NCBI GenBank assembly: GCA_020723505.1 | Contig: DYIT01000030.1 | Location: forward strand, 1-41,784 | Length of the DNA stretch: 41,784 nt | Reading direction: 5' to 3' | Source of the DNA: Candidatus Kuenenia stuttgartensis | GTDB taxonomy: Bacteria > Planctomycetota > JAKEIC01 > DYIT01 | Part shown: positions 31,460 through 41,048 of the stretch, one piece after another | How positions within the stretch are numbered: the stretch's first letter is position 1 | Layout: the number at the start of each line of letters is the position of its first letter | Program-made: the position numbers and the translations under genes | Notes under the pieces: model-generated | What the model saw: the letters and a program-made list of their open reading frames with translations, nothing else | Told to the model about the DNA's origin: nothing | The model's database searches: none

Positions 31460-33856
31460 CTACTTCGTCTCGGCCTTCTTCGCTTCCTGCTCCTGGATTA
31501 CGACCACGATCTTCGCGACTTGCTTCAGCATATTCCTGGCCGCAAGGAGGTTCGGTTCCAGGGAGAGCGCCTCGTTGAGCATGCCCGCCGCCGCGGCGAG
31601 GCTCTCAGCGTCCTTCGCGTCGCCCTCTATGATTATCTGCGCCTTGTAGGCGAGCTTGGATGCCTTGAGCACGTTCTGGGCCGATTCCTTTGTGACAATC
31701 ATGAGCTGGGCCGGCCTGCCTGCCGCTCCGAGTTTGCGGGACATGCGTCCACGGGTCAGGTTCTCGCCCTCCTTGCTGCCGGGCGCAGTGCCGGCGTCGC
31801 CGACGCTCCCGTCTTTGACTTCCTTCTCGGCATCAGCCATCTTCGCGCATCTCTCCGGTTCGGCGTCCGACGCCGCCGTGCTCTTCTTGTCTTCCGCCTG
31901 ATCCTTGCCGACCTTCTCCCCGGCATCGGATGCCTTGTCCTTCTTCGGAGATCCCCCCGCGCCCTCGGCGCTCGGAGCTGCAGGCGTGGCGGCAGGCTTT
32001 TCCTTTTCGCGGCCCGGTTCGTCCTTCGCCTCCTCCGCGTCCTCCTCGTTCCTGAAGGTCTCGGACCTGCGGCGCTGCTCCAGATTCTTGATGTTGTCCC
32101 TTAGAGCCGCCACGGCCTTCGCGCCCTCTTTCCCCTTCATGTACCCCGCGACAACGTCCAGCCTCTCGCTGAGAAGCTTCATAATCTCCGCCATCTCGCC
32201 GGGAGTAGGCAGATCCTTGAACTCGACAGTGACGCCTTCCGGCGGGTCCAGGCTTATGAGGTTGTTGACCAGCGTATGTTCCGCGACCGGTGAAACTCCG
32301 GGCGCCCCTACTTCGCCGGCAATGCGATCCATGCTCTTGCCGTATTTGAGCTCGAGGTTGGCCCGTATTTTCCTGGAAAGCCGGTCCACCACGTCCAGGA
32401 GCTCGTCTTCGGTCCCCATGTCGCCGTCGGAAAGCACGACCTGTCCTCCCGGGCAGCCCACGACCTTGATGTCGATTTTCACCTTGCCGCCGATGAGCAC
32501 GTAGCTCCCGCGCACCAGAATGTCGGCCTTGAGGTCCTCCACGACCTTGTTGACCGCGTCCGCGTGGCTTGCGCCCCCGGCCCTGAAGGCGGCGAGCTTC
32601 TCCTGGATCTTCTCCCTGGAATAGACGTTCAGCCAGGAGATCCTCGCGAGGTCGGTAATGATCATGTCCGCGACCCCGACCTTCATCCACGCGAGGTCGG
32701 CGTTGCCCTGGAGGTTCTCGAAGTCGAGAACCACGCAGACCGCGGGCTTTTCCTTCTTCTGGGTTTCCGACGCGGCCGGGTCGAGGCGGACCAGCCCCGC
32801 GCCATCGGAGGGCGCAGTTCCGGACCCGTCCGGCGCCGCGCCGCTATCATCCGCCTCCCGGCCCGAGAGGCCGGTGAGCACCAGCGTCACTGCCAGCGCC
32901 GCAGCTGCGAATGCGGCTGCGAACGCCGCGACCGCTATTCTCGCCCGCGATTTGGCCTCGGCGGGAGGCTTCAGGCTGATTTCGCTGGTCGGAACGCCGT
33001 CCACGAGAAGCTTGTCCAGGCTCGTCTCGCGGGACTTGCCGAGGATCTTGTCGATGTCGCCGACAACCTCGCCGGCGTCCTGGTAGCGGTGCTCCCTCTT
33101 CTTCGCGAGCATCTTCTCGAGGAGGGATACGACCGTCTTTGGGACCAGCGGGTTGATCTCGTCTATGGGTCTCGGCTTGTCGTACACGATCTTCTTGAAT
33201 AGCGACAGGGGCGTTTCCGCCTTGTGCGGGACCGTCCCCGAGAGCATCTCGTACAGGACCACTCCGAGGGAGTAGATGTCCGCCCTGGCGTCGACCTCCA
33301 GCGTCTCGCACTGCTCGGGCGAGCTGTACTCGGGAGTGCCGAGGTATACGCCCGACTCGGTTATCTTCGAGTCGAAAACCGCTCCCTTGGCCAGCCCGAA
33401 ATCCATGACCTTCACTATGCCGGACTGCTCAATCATGATGTTGTCCGGCTTTATGTCCCGGTGGATTATCCCCTTCTGGTGAGCGACGTGCAGGGCCGAC
33501 GCCGCCTGCCGAATGACCTCAAGCGCTTCCTTCCAGGGGAGAACGCCCTCTTCCCTGACTATCTTCGCGAGCGTCTTGCCCTTGACCAGCTGCATTGCGA
33601 GGTAGTAGTCGCCCTCGTCCACTCCGGCCCCGTAGATGGTAACGATGTTGGGATGCTCGATCTTGGCCGCGGCCTTGGATTCACGGAGGAAACGGTCGAT
33701 GTACTTCTCGTTGGAGGAAACCTCGCGCGGCAGGACCTTGATTGCGACTTCCCTGTCGAGATTCCGCTCGTATGCGCGGTAGACGACGCCCATGCCGCCC
33801 TGGCCGATTTTGTCCCTTATCTCGTATGGGCCCAGGAACTTCTTGTCTTTCATCAT
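31460..33856 (-). CDS. PknB-type Ser/Thr protein kinase with FlgO/CsgG-like extracytoplasmic domain
   Basis: A 798-residue receptor-like kinase. The N-terminal kinase domain (about 11-270) is complete: GQGGMGVV loop, Lys40 in VAIK, HRDIKPDN with Asp134, DFG at 152-154, and TPEYSSPEQ in place of the APE motif. One transmembrane helix lies at about 307-330 (IAVAAFAAAFAAAALAVTLV). Outside is a domain resembling FlgO/TolB-like N-terminal domains (VVLDFENLQGNADLAWMKVGVAD), then a Lys/Glu/Ala-rich stretch and a helical C-terminus. It probably senses an envelope signal and phosphorylates Ser/Thr targets. The FHA and STAS proteins encoded downstream are candidate partners. Starts at ATG 33856 behind AAAGGGGG, under an ECF-type promoter. 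Confidence 0.92.
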   Translation of the reverse strand: MMKDKKFLGPYEIRDKIGQGGMGVVYRAYERNLDREVAIKVLPREVSSNEKYIDRFLRESKAAAKIEHPNIVTIYGAGVDEGDYYLAMQLVKGKTLAKIVREEGVLPWKEALEVIRQAASALHVAHQKGIIHRDIKPDNIMIEQSGIVKVMDFGLAKGAVFDSKITESGVYLGTPEYSSPEQCETLEVDARADIYSLGVVLYEMLSGTVPHKAETPLSLFKKIVYDKPRPIDEINPLVPKTVVSLLEKMLAKKREHRYQDAGEVVGDIDKILGKSRETSLDKLLVDGVPTSEISLKPPAEAKSRARIAVAAFAAAFAAAALAVTLVLTGLSGREADDSGAAPDGSGTAPSDGAGLVRLDPAASETQKKEKPAVCVVLDFENLQGNADLAWMKVGVADMIITDLARISWLNVYSREKIQEKLAAFRAGGASHADAVNKVVEDLKADILVRGSYVLIGGKVKIDIKVVGCPGGQVVLSDGDMGTEDELLDVVDRLSRKIRANLELKYGKSMDRIAGEVGAPGVSPVAEHTLVNNLISLDPPEGVTVEFKDLPTPGEMAEIMKLLSERLDVVAGYMKGKEGAKAVAALRDNIKNLEQRRRSETFRNEEDAEEAKDEPGREKEKPAATPAAPSAEGAGGSPKKDKASDAGEKVGKDQAEDKKSTAASDAEPERCAKMADAEKEVKDGSVGDAGTAPGSKEGENLTRGRMSRKLGAAGRPAQLMIVTKESAQNVLKASKLAYKAQIIIEGDAKDAESLAAAAGMLNEALSLEPNLLAARNMLKQVAKIVVVIQEQEAKKAETK

Positions 33857-36170: not shown

Positions 36171-38033
36171 ATGAAGACCGCGATCATGGCATGCGTTGCG
36201 GCAGTCCTGGCGCTGCTTCTGCCCGCCGGAGCAGCGACGGGGACCGACGCAGCTGGCGATTTCGAGAAGATGGTCGAAACGGCCGGGGCCAAAGTGCAGG
36301 AGCTGAGGGGGCTCAAGTTCAAGTCGAGCGTTGCGGTCGGCATGAAATCGAGGAAGGAGCTGGCCGATTTCCTCCGGCGCTCGCTCGACGAGGAGTTCCC
36401 GGAGAAGAAGGCGGCCGACGTGGAGAGGGCGTACAAGAAGTTCGGCCTGATTCCCGCGGACCTGAACCTCCGCAAGACCGTGCTTGACATGCTCGAATCG
36501 CAAATCGGCGGATTCTACGATCCCCAGACCAAGAAGCTCTACGTCATAAAACCCGGCGAAGGCGCGGGGGCGGCCGCCGGGATGATGAAGCAGGTGGACG
36601 CGTTCCTGAAGATGGCAGGGACGTCGCTTGACGAGATTACCGCGGCCCACGAACTAGTCCATGCCCTCCAGGACCAGCACTACGACCTGATGAAACTCCA
36701 GGCGCCGATTTCCGGGAACGACGACAGGACGAACGCCTTCAAGTGCCTCGTGGAAGGGGACGCCGTCGAGGTCCAGAACGAGTTCCTGTTCGCGAAGATT
36801 CCGCCCCAGTTCAAGGGGCTCCTAAAGGCGCTGTCCAAGTCGGGCGGGGACTCCGGCATGAACGTCCCGCAGCCCGGCCTCGAAGGCGTGCCCGAATTCC
36901 TGAAGGTCTCGCTAATCTATCCTTATGCGGCAGGAGCGAAACTGATCGAGAAGATCAAGGAAAAGGGCGGAAGGGAGTCCATCGAGGCCTTCTTCAAGAA
37001 TCCTCCCCTTTCGACCGAGCAGGTGATGCACATCGAGAAGCTCCTCGACAATCCCGACGAACCCACGCAGGTGGAGTTCAAGGATCTCGCAAAGGCCCTT
37101 CCGGAAGGCGCAAGGCTTCTCGAGCAGAACGTCCTGGGCGAGCTGGGCGTCTTCATCCTCCTCAAGCAGTTCATGGGAGAGGACGAAGCCCGCCCGGCCG
37201 CGGCAGGATGGGACGGGGACTCGTTCGCCGCGTTCGATGTCGCCGGAGGAACCGCCCTCGTCTGGGTCTCGAACTGGGACGGCGAGGACCACGCCGAGGA
37301 ATTCGCCGCGGCCTATAGGAACCTCCTGGACTCGAAGTACGACGGCCGCGGCCGCTTCGAAGCCGGGACCACGGACGAATCCGGACTGGAATTCGCCGGG
37401 CTCGAGGGAGGCGGAGGGTACAACGTCATCGTCCGCAGGGGCGCGGACGTAGCGGTCATCGAAGGCCTTCCAAGGGCCGCCGCGCACAGGCTTGCCGGAG
37501 CAATCTGGAGCCGCTTCTCGAAGAGCCCGTACAAGCATCATACCCTTCTGCCCATGCCGGGAATCCCGGACCGTAAGCCGCAGCCTGGAACTCCACGGAT
37601 GGACGCCGGCGAGTTCAGAATCCCGGAACCTGCCGAAGGCTGGAACAAGTACGCCGGCCGAGGCGGCATGGCGCGTTTCTCGCTCTTAAACGCTAAGCTC
37701 GACGCGTGCATCGAGGGATCCGTGCTCGATCTGGGCGCTGAAATGACCCCCGAAAAAGTCGCAGGCCTCATGGCGCGCGGCCTCGAAGGCAGAATCGAGG
37801 GGCTTGCGATTGCAGGTTCGGAGCCCGTCGAGGGCGCGGGCATGCAAGGCCGCCAAATCACCTACTCGGGCAGGGACCCCGACACCGGTGCGGCGATGGT
37901 CTGGCGCCAGGCCGTCTTCTGCCGCGGCAAGTCCGCGTACGTGTTCACGCTCTCCGTGCCGAAGGAGAACTTCGAGAAAGCGCTGGAGTACTTCGGCGCG
38001 TTCCTGGAAGGAACGCTCATCAAGGAGAAATGA
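36171..38033 (+). CDS. Exported HExxH zincin-like protein
   Basis: A 620-residue protein with a Sec signal (IMACVAAVLALLLPAGAATG). Residues about 30-330 hold a zincin-like core: H160-E-L-V-H164 in AAHELVHALQDQH, followed by VEGDA with Glu196 as a likely third ligand. The lead-in QIGGFYDPQTKKLYVI is common to an uncharacterised family of secreted bacterial proteins with this motif. The C-terminal half has two beta-rich segments of unknown type (ALVWVSNWDGEDHAEEFAAA, FRIPEPAEGWNKY). Peptidase activity is inferred from the motif. The ATG at 36171 has AGGAGG and GGAG sites upstream. It converges with the ubiquitin-like operon; I see no functional link. Confidence 0.78.
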   Translation: MKTAIMACVAAVLALLLPAGAATGTDAAGDFEKMVETAGAKVQELRGLKFKSSVAVGMKSRKELADFLRRSLDEEFPEKKAADVERAYKKFGLIPADLNLRKTVLDMLESQIGGFYDPQTKKLYVIKPGEGAGAAAGMMKQVDAFLKMAGTSLDEITAAHELVHALQDQHYDLMKLQAPISGNDDRTNAFKCLVEGDAVEVQNEFLFAKIPPQFKGLLKALSKSGGDSGMNVPQPGLEGVPEFLKVSLIYPYAAGAKLIEKIKEKGGRESIEAFFKNPPLSTEQVMHIEKLLDNPDEPTQVEFKDLAKALPEGARLLEQNVLGELGVFILLKQFMGEDEARPAAAGWDGDSFAAFDVAGGTALVWVSNWDGEDHAEEFAAAYRNLLDSKYDGRGRFEAGTTDESGLEFAGLEGGGGYNVIVRRGADVAVIEGLPRAAAHRLAGAIWSRFSKSPYKHHTLLPMPGIPDRKPQPGTPRMDAGEFRIPEPAEGWNKYAGRGGMARFSLLNAKLDACIEGSVLDLGAEMTPEKVAGLMARGLEGRIEGLAIAGSEPVEGAGMQGRQITYSGRDPDTGAAMVWRQAVFCRGKSAYVFTLSVPKENFEKALEYFGAFLEGTLIKEK

Positions 38034-38079
38034 ACAGCGCGACCCAGGCTTCATTTCGACGGCATCAGAAATGCACGAG

Positions 38080-38673
38080 TCACCGGCCGGACGCCTGCCG
38101 CAGGCGCGCGAGGTAGAAGCCCCTTCCGGCTATTTCATGGCCTTTCCAGCCGAAGAGCTCGAGCTTCCCGCCCCTCGGGTCCACGACGAGGGCAATCTGC
38201 CAGGGAAGATTGAAGAAGTGGCGCTGGATGAAAAGGTCGTTCCCCGACAGGAAGGTCCCCAGCCCGGGATGGGAGTGATGCCAGCCGACCAGGAACTGCG
38301 GCCTGCCCGAGGGATTCGGCGACCTGGCGATTTCCCTCCATGCCGCCTCGAAGCAGTCGTGGGTGAACACGAGGGATGCCGGCCTGCTTTTCGCGTCCAT
38401 GGCCCGGAGGAATCGTTCGACCAGAGTGTAATCCGCGCCGCCGCAGGAGTGGTATCCTCCAACGAGGAATCCGCCGACCTCCCTGTCGGGAGAGGCTGCC
38501 GAGAACGCTGCGGCGTCTTTGAGGGCCTGCTCCATGACGAAGACTGCCGCGCAGCCCGATTCCGGCGCTAAGCCCTTTGCTTCGACCTCGAACGCGGGGT
38601 CCCTGAGCGGGCTTTCCATCGCCAGAGGCGAGGCGAAGGCGAGATTCCCGAATTCCACGGACGCCGAATCCAC
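38080..38673 (-). CDS. JAMM/JAB-domain metallo-isopeptidase (deubiquitinase-like)
   Basis: A 197-residue MPN+ protein, the third gene of the ubiquitin-like operon. The JAMM zinc site is complete: Glu65 in REVGGFLVG, then H133-S-H135-P with S143 and D146 in HSHPGLGTFLSGND, spaced as in active JAMM enzymes (ten residues between the second His and the Asp). These remove or process ubiquitin-like modifiers or sulfur-carrier proteins. It starts at a GTG four bases after the E2-like stop, so it is coupled to that gene. No RadC-like or Rpn11 insert is evident. The first 40 residues are an extension before the MPN core. Given its neighbours, a role in cutting or trimming the ubiquitin-like protein is the best inference. 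Confidence 0.9.
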   Translation of the reverse strand: MDSASVEFGNLAFASPLAMESPLRDPAFEVEAKGLAPESGCAAVFVMEQALKDAAAFSAASPDREVGGFLVGGYHSCGGADYTLVERFLRAMDAKSRPASLVFTHDCFEAAWREIARSPNPSGRPQFLVGWHHSHPGLGTFLSGNDLFIQRHFFNLPWQIALVVDPRGGKLELFGWKGHEIAGRGFYLARLRQASGR

Positions 38674-38676
38674 CGG

Positions 38677-39231
38677 TCAATCCAGAAAATCGATGCCCTT
38701 TGCGGGGGGCGCGCCCCGCGAATCGGCGCGCATGGAGCGTTCTCCCCGCGCCGCCTTGTCCCTTATCTGCCTCGGGTCGAGCGGGAACCTGAAATCCCTC
38801 TGGGTCAGCGCCCAGCGCGCGGCCCTTATGTTATAGGCGCTCCGAGGGTCGAAATTGGCCCACCTTAGCATGTCCCAGAGCATCTCGCAGAGCCTGTCCA
38901 TGGCGAGCCCGGGAACCCAGTCGGTGGTGTAGCCTCCCAGGCACACGGCTCCCGACTCCGACACGTTCGGATGGAATACGGGCGTCATCCAGTGGAGGTC
39001 GGGCTTGAGCCGGGGGTATTCTGATCCGAGGACCGCCTCGACTTCATGGCTCAAGGCTGCTGTGACGCCGGCCTGGGGATCGAGGTAGAGCCCGCTTCCT
39101 GCGAAATGGAAGCGGTATTTGTCGGGCGGATCGCCAATCCACCTCATGTCGAAAATCGTGCTCTCGGATCTGAGGTTCGAGAGGCATGCGAAATCGTTGC
39201 GTAGCCTGCGCAGCCTGGGCGACTCGGCCAC
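38677..39231 (-). CDS. E2 ubiquitin-conjugating-enzyme-like protein
   Basis: A 184-residue protein with a recognisable UBC fold: RLRRLRNDF helix 1, YRFHFAGSGLYL strands, YPRLKPDLHWMTPVFHPN and the catalytic stretch. It has the eukaryotic-type HPN motif (87-89) and Cys97 in ESGAVCLGG at the right distance, then a Trp-containing loop (TTDWVPGLAMDRLCEMLWDML) and SAYNIRAARWAL. So it should accept a modifier as a thioester. It starts at GTG 39231 behind GGGGGA; a nearby ATG is out of frame. It sits between the ubiquitin-like gene and the JAMM gene. No E1-type adenylating enzyme is in the window, so how the Cys is charged is open. Confidence 0.9.
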   Translation of the reverse strand: MAESPRLRRLRNDFACLSNLRSESTIFDMRWIGDPPDKYRFHFAGSGLYLDPQAGVTAALSHEVEAVLGSEYPRLKPDLHWMTPVFHPNVSESGAVCLGGYTTDWVPGLAMDRLCEMLWDMLRWANFDPRSAYNIRAARWALTQRDFRFPLDPRQIRDKAARGERSMRADSRGAPPAKGIDFLD

Positions 39232-39284
39232 TGGTCATCCCCCACGCCGGAAGTACATGAATCGGGTGCCAAGGTTTCTCCATG

Positions 39285-39325
39285 GCATTCCGTCATTCCG
39301 CGCGCGGCGGGGAATGACGGAATGC
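39285..39325. repeat. Palindromic repeat covering the 3' end of the ubiquitin-like gene
   Basis: GCATTCCGTCATTCC (39285-39299) and GGAATGACGGAATGC (39311-39325) are perfect 15-base arms with an 11-base GC loop. It resembles the widespread intergenic repeat that yields FRHSRAGG-type peptides. It encodes the last ten residues of the ubiquitin-like protein, and the stop codon lies in one arm. Confidence 0.8.
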
Positions 39326-39595
39326 GGCGATAATCTCCGGAAATATGACAAGGTGGTCGCCTTCCTTCACGCCTGCGTCCTGAAGCGTCTGGCCGGCAAG
39401 CAGGCGTTTCCCCCCCTCCCTGTGGTCTAAAGTGTACTTCACCGGACCGCCGTCCGGGCCGACCACCGGCAGGTTCATGCGGGTGATTAGGCTGGAAATT
39501 ATCTCCCTGGACGTGACCGACCCCGCGATTACCGCTTCTACCATTTTCGCGCCGGTCTGGTCCAGGAACTTGACTCTCAATCCAGCTTCGGGCAT
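39293..39595 (-). CDS. Ubiquitin-like beta-grasp protein, no Gly-Gly tail
   Basis: A 100-residue protein at the head of the E2/JAMM operon. Strand-helix-strand order fits a beta-grasp of the YukD/EsaB-like kind: LRVKFLDQTG, VEAVIAGS, the helix SREIISSLITRM, VKYTLDHREGGKRLL, then TLQDAGVKEGDHLVIF, typical of the ubiquitin 3' half. The ATG at 39595 follows GAGGA. After PEII the sequence reads AAFRHSPPRAE; there is no terminal Gly-Gly and the tail from residue 91 comes from a palindromic repeat. It may be a non-conjugated partner, a protein damaged by repeat insertion, or use other chemistry. Assignment is by pattern and context, not a database match. Confidence 0.78.
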   Translation of the reverse strand: MPEAGLRVKFLDQTGAKMVEAVIAGSVTSREIISSLITRMNLPVVGPDGGPVKYTLDHREGGKRLLAGQTLQDAGVKEGDHLVIFPEIIAAFRHSPPRAE

Positions 39596-39661
39596 CGAAT
39601 CCTCGCAATCTGGAGATGCCGGATATCGGCACATCCGGCGATTGACCGTCACCAGGCAGCT

Positions 39662-39689
39662 ATTATACATCGTCGCCCCGGATGAGCAA
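39662..39689 (-). promoter_or_regulatory. Promoter of the ubiquitin-like/E2/JAMM operon
   Basis: Minus-strand TTGCTC (39684-39689), 16 bases, perfect TATAAT (39662-39667). The leader would be about 60 bases, and the TATAAT rules out the longer upstream reading of the ubiquitin-like gene. Confidence 0.7.
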
Positions 39690-39820
39690 AGCGCCTGTTC
39701 GCCGCAGCCGGAGCTCACCACGAAGATCACCCGCCTTCGCTTTGTTTGTCGTAACGAGAGCCGGATGGCGCCACGACCGATTCCGTCTGCTGCTCTTCAC
39801 CGTCCGGACCGGGAATGCCA

Positions 39821-39849
39821 TTGACACAACCGGAAGCGCTGGTTTAATT
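39821..39849 (+). promoter_or_regulatory. Promoter of the FHA-phosphatase-like gene
   Basis: Perfect TTGACA (39821-39826), 17 bases, TTAATT (39844-39849), about 55 bases before the ATG at 39909. It is back to back with the operon promoter at 39662, 130 bases away. Confidence 0.65.
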
Positions 39850-39908
39850 TAATACATTCCCCTGGGATTCCGGATTTCCGGAGGGTTTGTTTTTACCGGA
39901 CCCGCACA

Positions 39909-41048
39909 ATGGCAGCGAAGGTTTTCCTGCGAATCAGCCGCGACGGGAAGCTCGAATCCGAGAAGGAACTCACCGGCCGCAAGACTATACTGGGAAGGGG
40001 GGAAGGCGGCGCCGACAACAGGATAGTCCTCAACGACGAAACCGTCTCGTTCGACCATGCGCAGATTCAGCTTCGCGGAGAAGACGTCCTCATACAGGAC
40101 CTGAAGAGCAGGAACAAGGTCCTCGTGAACGGGCAGTTCATCAATCCGGGAGTCTTCTACAGGCTGAGGCAAGGCGACGTCATAGAGATATGCGCCTACA
40201 GCATGAAGGTGGACATCAGGACGCCCAGGACCGCCCCTCCCCTCGAGAAGGCGCCTCCCGAGCTCGGGGGTATCTCGCTGGCCGTCTACTCCTCTCCGGC
40301 CTCGGCGGCGGCGCACGATTTCGTCTCGTTCCAATCGCTAAAGGACGGCAGGGCAGGAATCGCCGTGGGGACAATCGGCATGGATTCCGAAATCGGCGAA
40401 GAGACCGCAACAGGATGCGGCGAGCTCCTGAGGATTGCAGCCGCCGCCTCTGAGTCTCCCTCGGAAGTCATCGCGGGGCTGAGCCGGGCGCTCGCGGGCG
40501 ATCCGGTGACGCGGAACCCGGTCGGAATCGCCTACGGCATACTCGATCCGAAGCAGCTGTCCTTCAGGTTCGCTTCCGCGGGCGGGATCTCGGCCGCCTT
40601 CTACAGCAAGGCCAAGCCGGCCGGGCTGAGGCACATCGCGTCCGACTGCGGGCCGCTCAATCCGGGCCAGGATCCCCCGGCCGCCGCGGAGAAGGTCGTG
40701 AAATTCCGCGACGGGGACGTGCTGCTCATCCTAAGCCCAGGCGTGGTCGAATGCTCGTTCGTGCCTGACCACGAGGAGACGCAGCAGCTCAGGAACGTGG
40801 TCAGGGAAGAGCTCATCGAATCATGGGGAGAGAACCTGTCCACCTTCATCGACCGCCTGAAGTCCAGGATCGGCGAAGTCGAGTGCAAGGTCGGACCTTT
40901 CGGCCTCCAGGGGCTCGCCCGCGCCGCCGCCTCGGCCGCCCTGGGAGGCGTCAAGGCGCTCATGCCGCTCCTCGACGAATCGCTGAAGAAGCACCTCCGG
41001 GGCCAGCCGCCGGCGCGCGACCTTACCGTGTTCGGCATAGAGAAATGA
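39909..41048 (+). CDS. FHA domain fused to a degenerate SpoIIE/PP2C-like phosphatase domain
   Basis: A 379-residue cytoplasmic protein. Residues about 6-103 are an FHA domain, which binds phosphothreonine: ILGRGEGG, VSFDHAQI with the Ser and His of the motif, and SRNKVLVNG. From about 120 it follows the SpoIIE/PP2C plan (SLKDGRAGIAVGTIGMDSE, ISAAFYSKAKP, DGDVLLILSPGVVECSF), but the metal-binding Asp of the usual GD-x-SG is Thr (VGTIG) and the Asp of TDGVxEA is Pro (SPGVVE). So it is probably a pseudophosphatase acting as a binding module. The ATG at 39909 has only a weak ribosome site. Its stop overlaps the next start (ATGA), and it is divergent from the ubiquitin-like operon. Confidence 0.8.
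   Translation: MAAKVFLRISRDGKLESEKELTGRKTILGRGEGGADNRIVLNDETVSFDHAQIQLRGEDVLIQDLKSRNKVLVNGQFINPGVFYRLRQGDVIEICAYSMKVDIRTPRTAPPLEKAPPELGGISLAVYSSPASAAAHDFVSFQSLKDGRAGIAVGTIGMDSEIGEETATGCGELLRIAAAASESPSEVIAGLSRALAGDPVTRNPVGIAYGILDPKQLSFRFASAGGISAAFYSKAKPAGLRHIASDCGPLNPGQDPPAAAEKVVKFRDGDVLLILSPGVVECSFVPDHEETQQLRNVVREELIESWGENLSTFIDRLKSRIGEVECKVGPFGLQGLARAAASAALGGVKALMPLLDESLKKHLRGQPPARDLTVFGIEK

Follow-up and report, generated by a model that had tools for sequence, protein, structure and literature searches.

Prokaryotic systems that combine a ubiquitin-like protein (UBL) with E1, E2 and JAB proteins were predicted by Iyer 2006 (PMC1779556), and prokaryotic RING E3s by Burroughs 2011 (doi 10.1039/c1mb05061c) as cited in PMC7159879, where a UBL-E2 fusion together with JAB, E1 and RING is also described as a complete set. 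In Caldiarchaeum subterraneum one operon encodes ubiquitin, E1, E2, a small RING and Rpn11/JAMM; this system has been reconstituted in vitro, and its JAMM/Rpn11 trims pro-ubiquitin, exposing Gly-Gly (PMC5654768). Precursor trimming is also reported for BilABCD: BilC acts on BilA, which consists of two UBL domains, and BilB carries a CEHH motif (PMC11354881). Bacillus YukD is reported not to be conjugated (PMC1779556).

The window, that is the whole stretch of DNA analyzed here, is the entire 41,784-base contig C135 of genome G000 (the bacterium under study), a draft assembly of 207 contigs with 89% completeness and 4.4% contamination. It carries a small operon for a UBL, an E2 and a JAMM peptidase. 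By descent this system belongs to the prokaryotic UBL-E1-E2-JAB-RING systems: G000 has the same component set, and UBL-E2 fusions are also seen in two of the loci compared (L119:9695 and L120:8301, each a single 313-aa frame in which the E2 begins just past the Ala-Gly of the UBL). What differs is that in G000 the E1 and RING genes are unlinked to the operon and the UBL has no terminal Gly. Because both the E1 linkage and the C-terminal Gly are absent from this copy, it is termed a variant here, and no claim of a working system is made.

The other described systems are further away. The Caldiarchaeum operon is archaeal, linked, and its ubiquitin ends in Gly-Gly, whereas the bacterial family ends in Ala-Gly and the window UBL in Ala-Ala. 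With BilABCD there is a resemblance in the four-part set of UBL, E2, JAB and E1 with precursor trimming; in contrast, the window has one UBL domain and an HPN-type E2 with Cys97. Identity with BilABCD was rejected, as the UBL is not a tandem-UBL BilA and the E2 not a CEHH-type BilB. In CBASS Cap2/Cap3 and the 6a-type systems E1 and E2 are fused, and a separate UBL is not known to be used. An E1-E2 fusion is also described in PMC1779556. The E1, E2 and JAB chemistry is shared, but the G000 proteins are all separate, and a Cap2/Cap3 system was rejected for lack of such a fusion: the E2 stands alone and the E1 is a separate protein of 381 aa. Finally, the window UBL falls in Pfam YukD, as do type VII YukD/EccD proteins; unlike these it shares an operon with E2 and JAMM, and its relatives have a conserved Ala-Gly end. 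The EccD profile scores far below cut-off against the UBL. PADLOC gives no Bil profile match for the UBL or the E2, and PADLOC and NCBIfam together contain no specific match for either.

The sequence-only reading of this DNA had proposed three adjacent genes under their own promoter, all on the minus strand and without an E1 gene. The three genes hold up: sequence profiles, structure prediction and the conservation of gene order are concordant (Table 1). For the UBL, Pfam YukD is over cut-off (6e-10), and the AlphaFold2 model, built like that of the E2 from alignments of relatives, is a beta-grasp with a pLDDT of 88.0 whose best PDB matches are SUMO, ubiquitin and Caldiarchaeum ubiquitin. For the unfused E2, UQ_con is over cut-off (5.5e-11) and the model (pLDDT 86.6) has the UBC fold, with eukaryotic E2s such as UbcH5c, Rad6 and UBE2S as best PDB matches. 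Across 20 aligned E2s the proposed catalytic Cys97 is invariant together with Pro88 and Asn89, and His87 is nearly invariant. The JAMM protein is just under the Pfam cut-off (JAB/Prok-JAB, 4e-4) and scores 162 bits against the family profile; its zinc site is complete by eye, as had been claimed (E65, H133-S-H135-x7-S143-x2-D146). It is the sole clear Prok-JAB match in G000. The UBL and the E2 are single copy; a second UBL was searched for in the genome and none is present. The promoter finds no support: a search of positions 38000-40000 of the window returned no sigma-70-like promoter.

Table 1. Features of the system in G000; coordinates without a contig name refer to the window.
Feature	Coordinates	Strand	Evidence or detail
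UBL, YukD-type ubiquitin-like protein, 100 aa	39293..39595	-	Pfam YukD, beta-grasp model, alignments
E2, UBC-fold conjugating enzyme, 184 aa, GTG start, HPN 87-89, Cys97	38677..39231	-	Pfam UQ_con, alignment, model
JAMM/JAB peptidase, 197 aa, GTG start	38080..38673	-	Pfam JAB, motif, family profile
Palindrome, 41 bases, 15-base arms GCATTCCGTCATTCC / GGAATGACGGAATGC, 11-base loop	39285..39325	.	arms at 39286 and 39311
FHA + SpoIIE/PP2C-like phosphatase gene, divergent, probably not a part	39909..41048	+	Pfam
E1, separate protein, 381 aa	G000:C114:28263-29405		ThiF search; sole Pfam match ThiF
RING E3 candidate, 267 aa, hydrophobic N-terminus, C-terminal RING	G000:C82:51-854		5e-22 vs L109 operon RING protein
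Second RING protein, 179 aa, E3 candidate	G000:C127 about 31.3 kb

A profile scan of the window finds no E1-family match, so the absence of an E1 near the operon extends to the whole contig. It does not extend to the organism. G000 encodes exactly one E1 of the operon-linked family, on contig C114, in addition to ordinary ThiF/MoeB-type genes; E1 and operon thus lie at separate loci. The E1 gene begins 27 bases past a gene that we take, from its sequence, to be cyclophilin-like. In a maximum-likelihood tree the protein falls inside the operon-E1 group with support 100/99, apart from the ThiF/MoeB-like outgroup; its placement within the group is left unsettled by the tree. Every position that is invariant across 23 operon E1s is retained in it, among them the ATP-site glycines, Arg, Asp and the conserved Cys, and it departs at only two sites, both near-invariant hydrophobic positions. 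The tetranucleotide profile of C114 correlates with that of the window at r = 0.948; for comparison, the two window halves give 0.936 and other genomes at most 0.79. This match argues against contamination as the source of C114.

Other candidates were rejected: a ThiF match on C58 groups with the ThiF outgroup, and matches on C201 are short stretches. Nor does the E1 lie just beyond a contig end, since it is at least 18 kb from either end of C114.

When the C114 E1 was used as query against 99 relatives, its close homologues were found to adjoin E2 genes. Profiles were rebuilt and the loci on contigs long enough to tell were counted by hand, with the G001 duplicate removed: at 29 of these 31 informative loci an E1 is linked to an E2 of this kind, nearly always along with UBL and JAMM. 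The remaining two loci hold an archaeal E2 (L121) and, in G024, an E2-like protein whose catalytic Cys is replaced (L065:7868-8533); G024 is a one-contig genome, and E1, UBL and JAMM are all absent within about 8 kb of this gene. The only relative with the same gene order is G001, where E1, UBL, a GAF-adenylate/guanylate cyclase gene, E2 and JAMM follow each other (L107, with the cyclase gene at L107:7742-9979). There is also some variation among the loci. In G018 the E1 belongs to a frame of 1047 aa, of which the N-terminal 660 residues have no Pfam match (L058:9104-12247), and five operons (L103, L109, L111, L114 and L118) have a second JAMM, most of them also a second, more divergent E2.

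The sequence-only reading had left two ways out: an E1 working from elsewhere, or an E2 used independently of E1. The first is supported by the intact family E1 on C114. As that E1 is unlinked to the operon, we infer rather than observe that the two function together. The second, in which UBL and E2 would interact non-covalently or the UBL would be charged by another route, could appeal to an E1-free contig and a UBL without C-terminal Gly. We consider it highly improbable: nothing supports it directly, the genome itself encodes an intact family E1, which makes it unneeded, and the E2 family is otherwise E1-linked at the loci counted above.

The end of the UBL had been overlooked. In all 27 distinct UBLs from relatives, Ala-Gly closes the fold, and either a variable tail or nothing comes after it, which fits trimming by JAMM to expose the Gly. 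The window UBL alone has Ala-Ala, followed by FRHSPPRAE and a stop (C-terminus PEIIAAFRHSPPRAE); the tail contains no Gly, and the assembled protein therefore has no C-terminal Gly that JAMM could expose. The palindrome of Table 1 occupies the site of the Gly codon of the relatives and encodes the final 10 residues and the stop of the window UBL. Its hairpin (-33 kcal/mol) is far stabler than those of shuffled sequences (z -4.2). An abundant repeat was considered and rejected, as a genome search finds weakly similar copies only.

The likeliest explanation is that the palindrome is a local lesion standing where the end of the UBL gene should be. Since the Gly is gone and the palindrome stands at that very site, this copy of the UBL is most likely recently damaged and would be a poor or inactive substrate. 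The active-site residues of E1, E2, JAMM and RING are kept; any decay would therefore either be of recent date or affect the UBL alone. Normal attachment of a tag without terminal Gly may be lost. Should the loss of Gly be genuine, the system in its assembled form may be unable to conjugate anything.

Sequencing and assembly are difficult across strong hairpins. The missing Gly could thus stem from a misassembly of the palindrome, in which case the real UBL would be normal and the system an ordinary working one whose E1 has moved. The near-uniqueness of the palindrome within the genome and the intact state of all other active sites would agree with this; against it, the sequence is continuous, the spacing between UBL and E2 is ordinary and a plausible ribosome site precedes the E2 start. 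On balance we find an assembly error rather unlikely, though it deserves to be kept in mind.

A real change could also have been put to use. Ubiquitin G76A is still conjugated yet resists removal, and the window UBL might likewise end in Ala and be conjugated slowly and irreversibly, or it might have taken on a role other than conjugation; in either case E2 and JAMM would have been kept for the new use. The kept active-site residues of E1, E2, JAMM and RING are compatible with such a role, and so are the branch lengths, which exceed the medians for the E2 (0.73 vs 0.42) and for the E1 (1.11 vs 0.54). However, no relative has an Ala-Ala end, and the change resembles palindrome damage rather than a selected tail; we regard this as improbable. 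A Gly-less modifier that is still used with E1, E2, JAMM and RING, either as an Ala-terminated irreversible tag or as a non-covalent partner of the cascade, appears quite improbable as well. The preferred reading is that the UBL is damaged.

RING proteins had also been overlooked. In eight loci of relatives a gene of ~250-320 codons with a C-terminal RING lies near the operon; the RING was named Prok-RING_1 in the one such protein scanned with Pfam. G000 does contain RING E3 candidates, on contigs C82 and C127. C82 is a short contig, and its composition matches that of the window less closely (r = 0.78 on 2.3 kb). In general, Prok-RING matches over cut-off accompany the system: they are present in 14 of 14 carrier genomes tested, and in none of 14 controls.

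The ratio of the two components is uneven. Ten carriers searched have one or two E2s each, and Prok-RING matches per carrier range from 1 to 53 at E 0.01. Some of these bacteria thus combine one or two E2s with many RINGs, a pattern that resembles the eukaryotic E3 hierarchy. Genomes of this kind are G099 (of L104), G018, G102 (of L116) and G100 (of L105), with 53, 32, 22 and 11 matches. In G099, the richest of them, a full RING-like Cys/His signature is seen in 17 of 20 sampled loci (L160-L179); the proteins concerned differ in length and in membrane content.

It had further been suggested that the neighbouring FHA and CPBP genes could be partners. This is not borne out: at none of the other loci compared does a homologue of either adjoin the system, and both the FHA-phosphatase and the CPBP protease gene were rejected because the neighbourhood is not conserved. 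FHA proteins of another architecture are found beside the system in three distant loci, and protein-kinase-related genes near it in several. From these recurring neighbours in the gene maps a link of the system to phosphorylation signalling is possible. The window itself encodes a protein kinase (31460-33856, minus strand), on the same contig as the operon and the FHA-phosphatase gene.

Taken together, we give a probability of about 0.8 to the reading in which the operon supplies UBL, E2 and JAMM to a bacterial E1-E2-RING(E3)-UBL-JAMM system whose E1 and RINGs are encoded elsewhere and whose UBL is most likely damaged. G000 has the full E1-E2-RING-UBL-JAMM set, dispersed over several contigs. 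The sequence-only reading was right on the fold and enzyme assignments, and its suggestion of a distant E1 is supported.

Every catalytic step of the pathway is predicted from what is known of the families. The JAMM would trim the variable tail of the UBL after the conserved Gly, whereupon the E1 would adenylate the exposed Gly and take the UBL onto its own Cys. From there the UBL would pass to Cys97 of the E2, and a membrane-anchored RING protein would bring the E2~UBL to the target, from which the JAMM would also be able to strip the tag. G000 does encode these enzymes, though at scattered places, and we would expect its modifier in the assembled form to be a poor or dead substrate.

These results remove a false exception, as the E2 need not act without E1. 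Further, the genes of a bacterial ubiquitin-like pathway can lie scattered over the genome, and surveys restricted to operons will therefore report E1s and E3s as missing though they are present. The pattern of one E2 and many RINGs in related bacteria, with over 50 matches in one genome, offers test material for the origins of E3 diversity. The Gly-less modifier, if real, would be a natural test of how strictly the Gly is needed.
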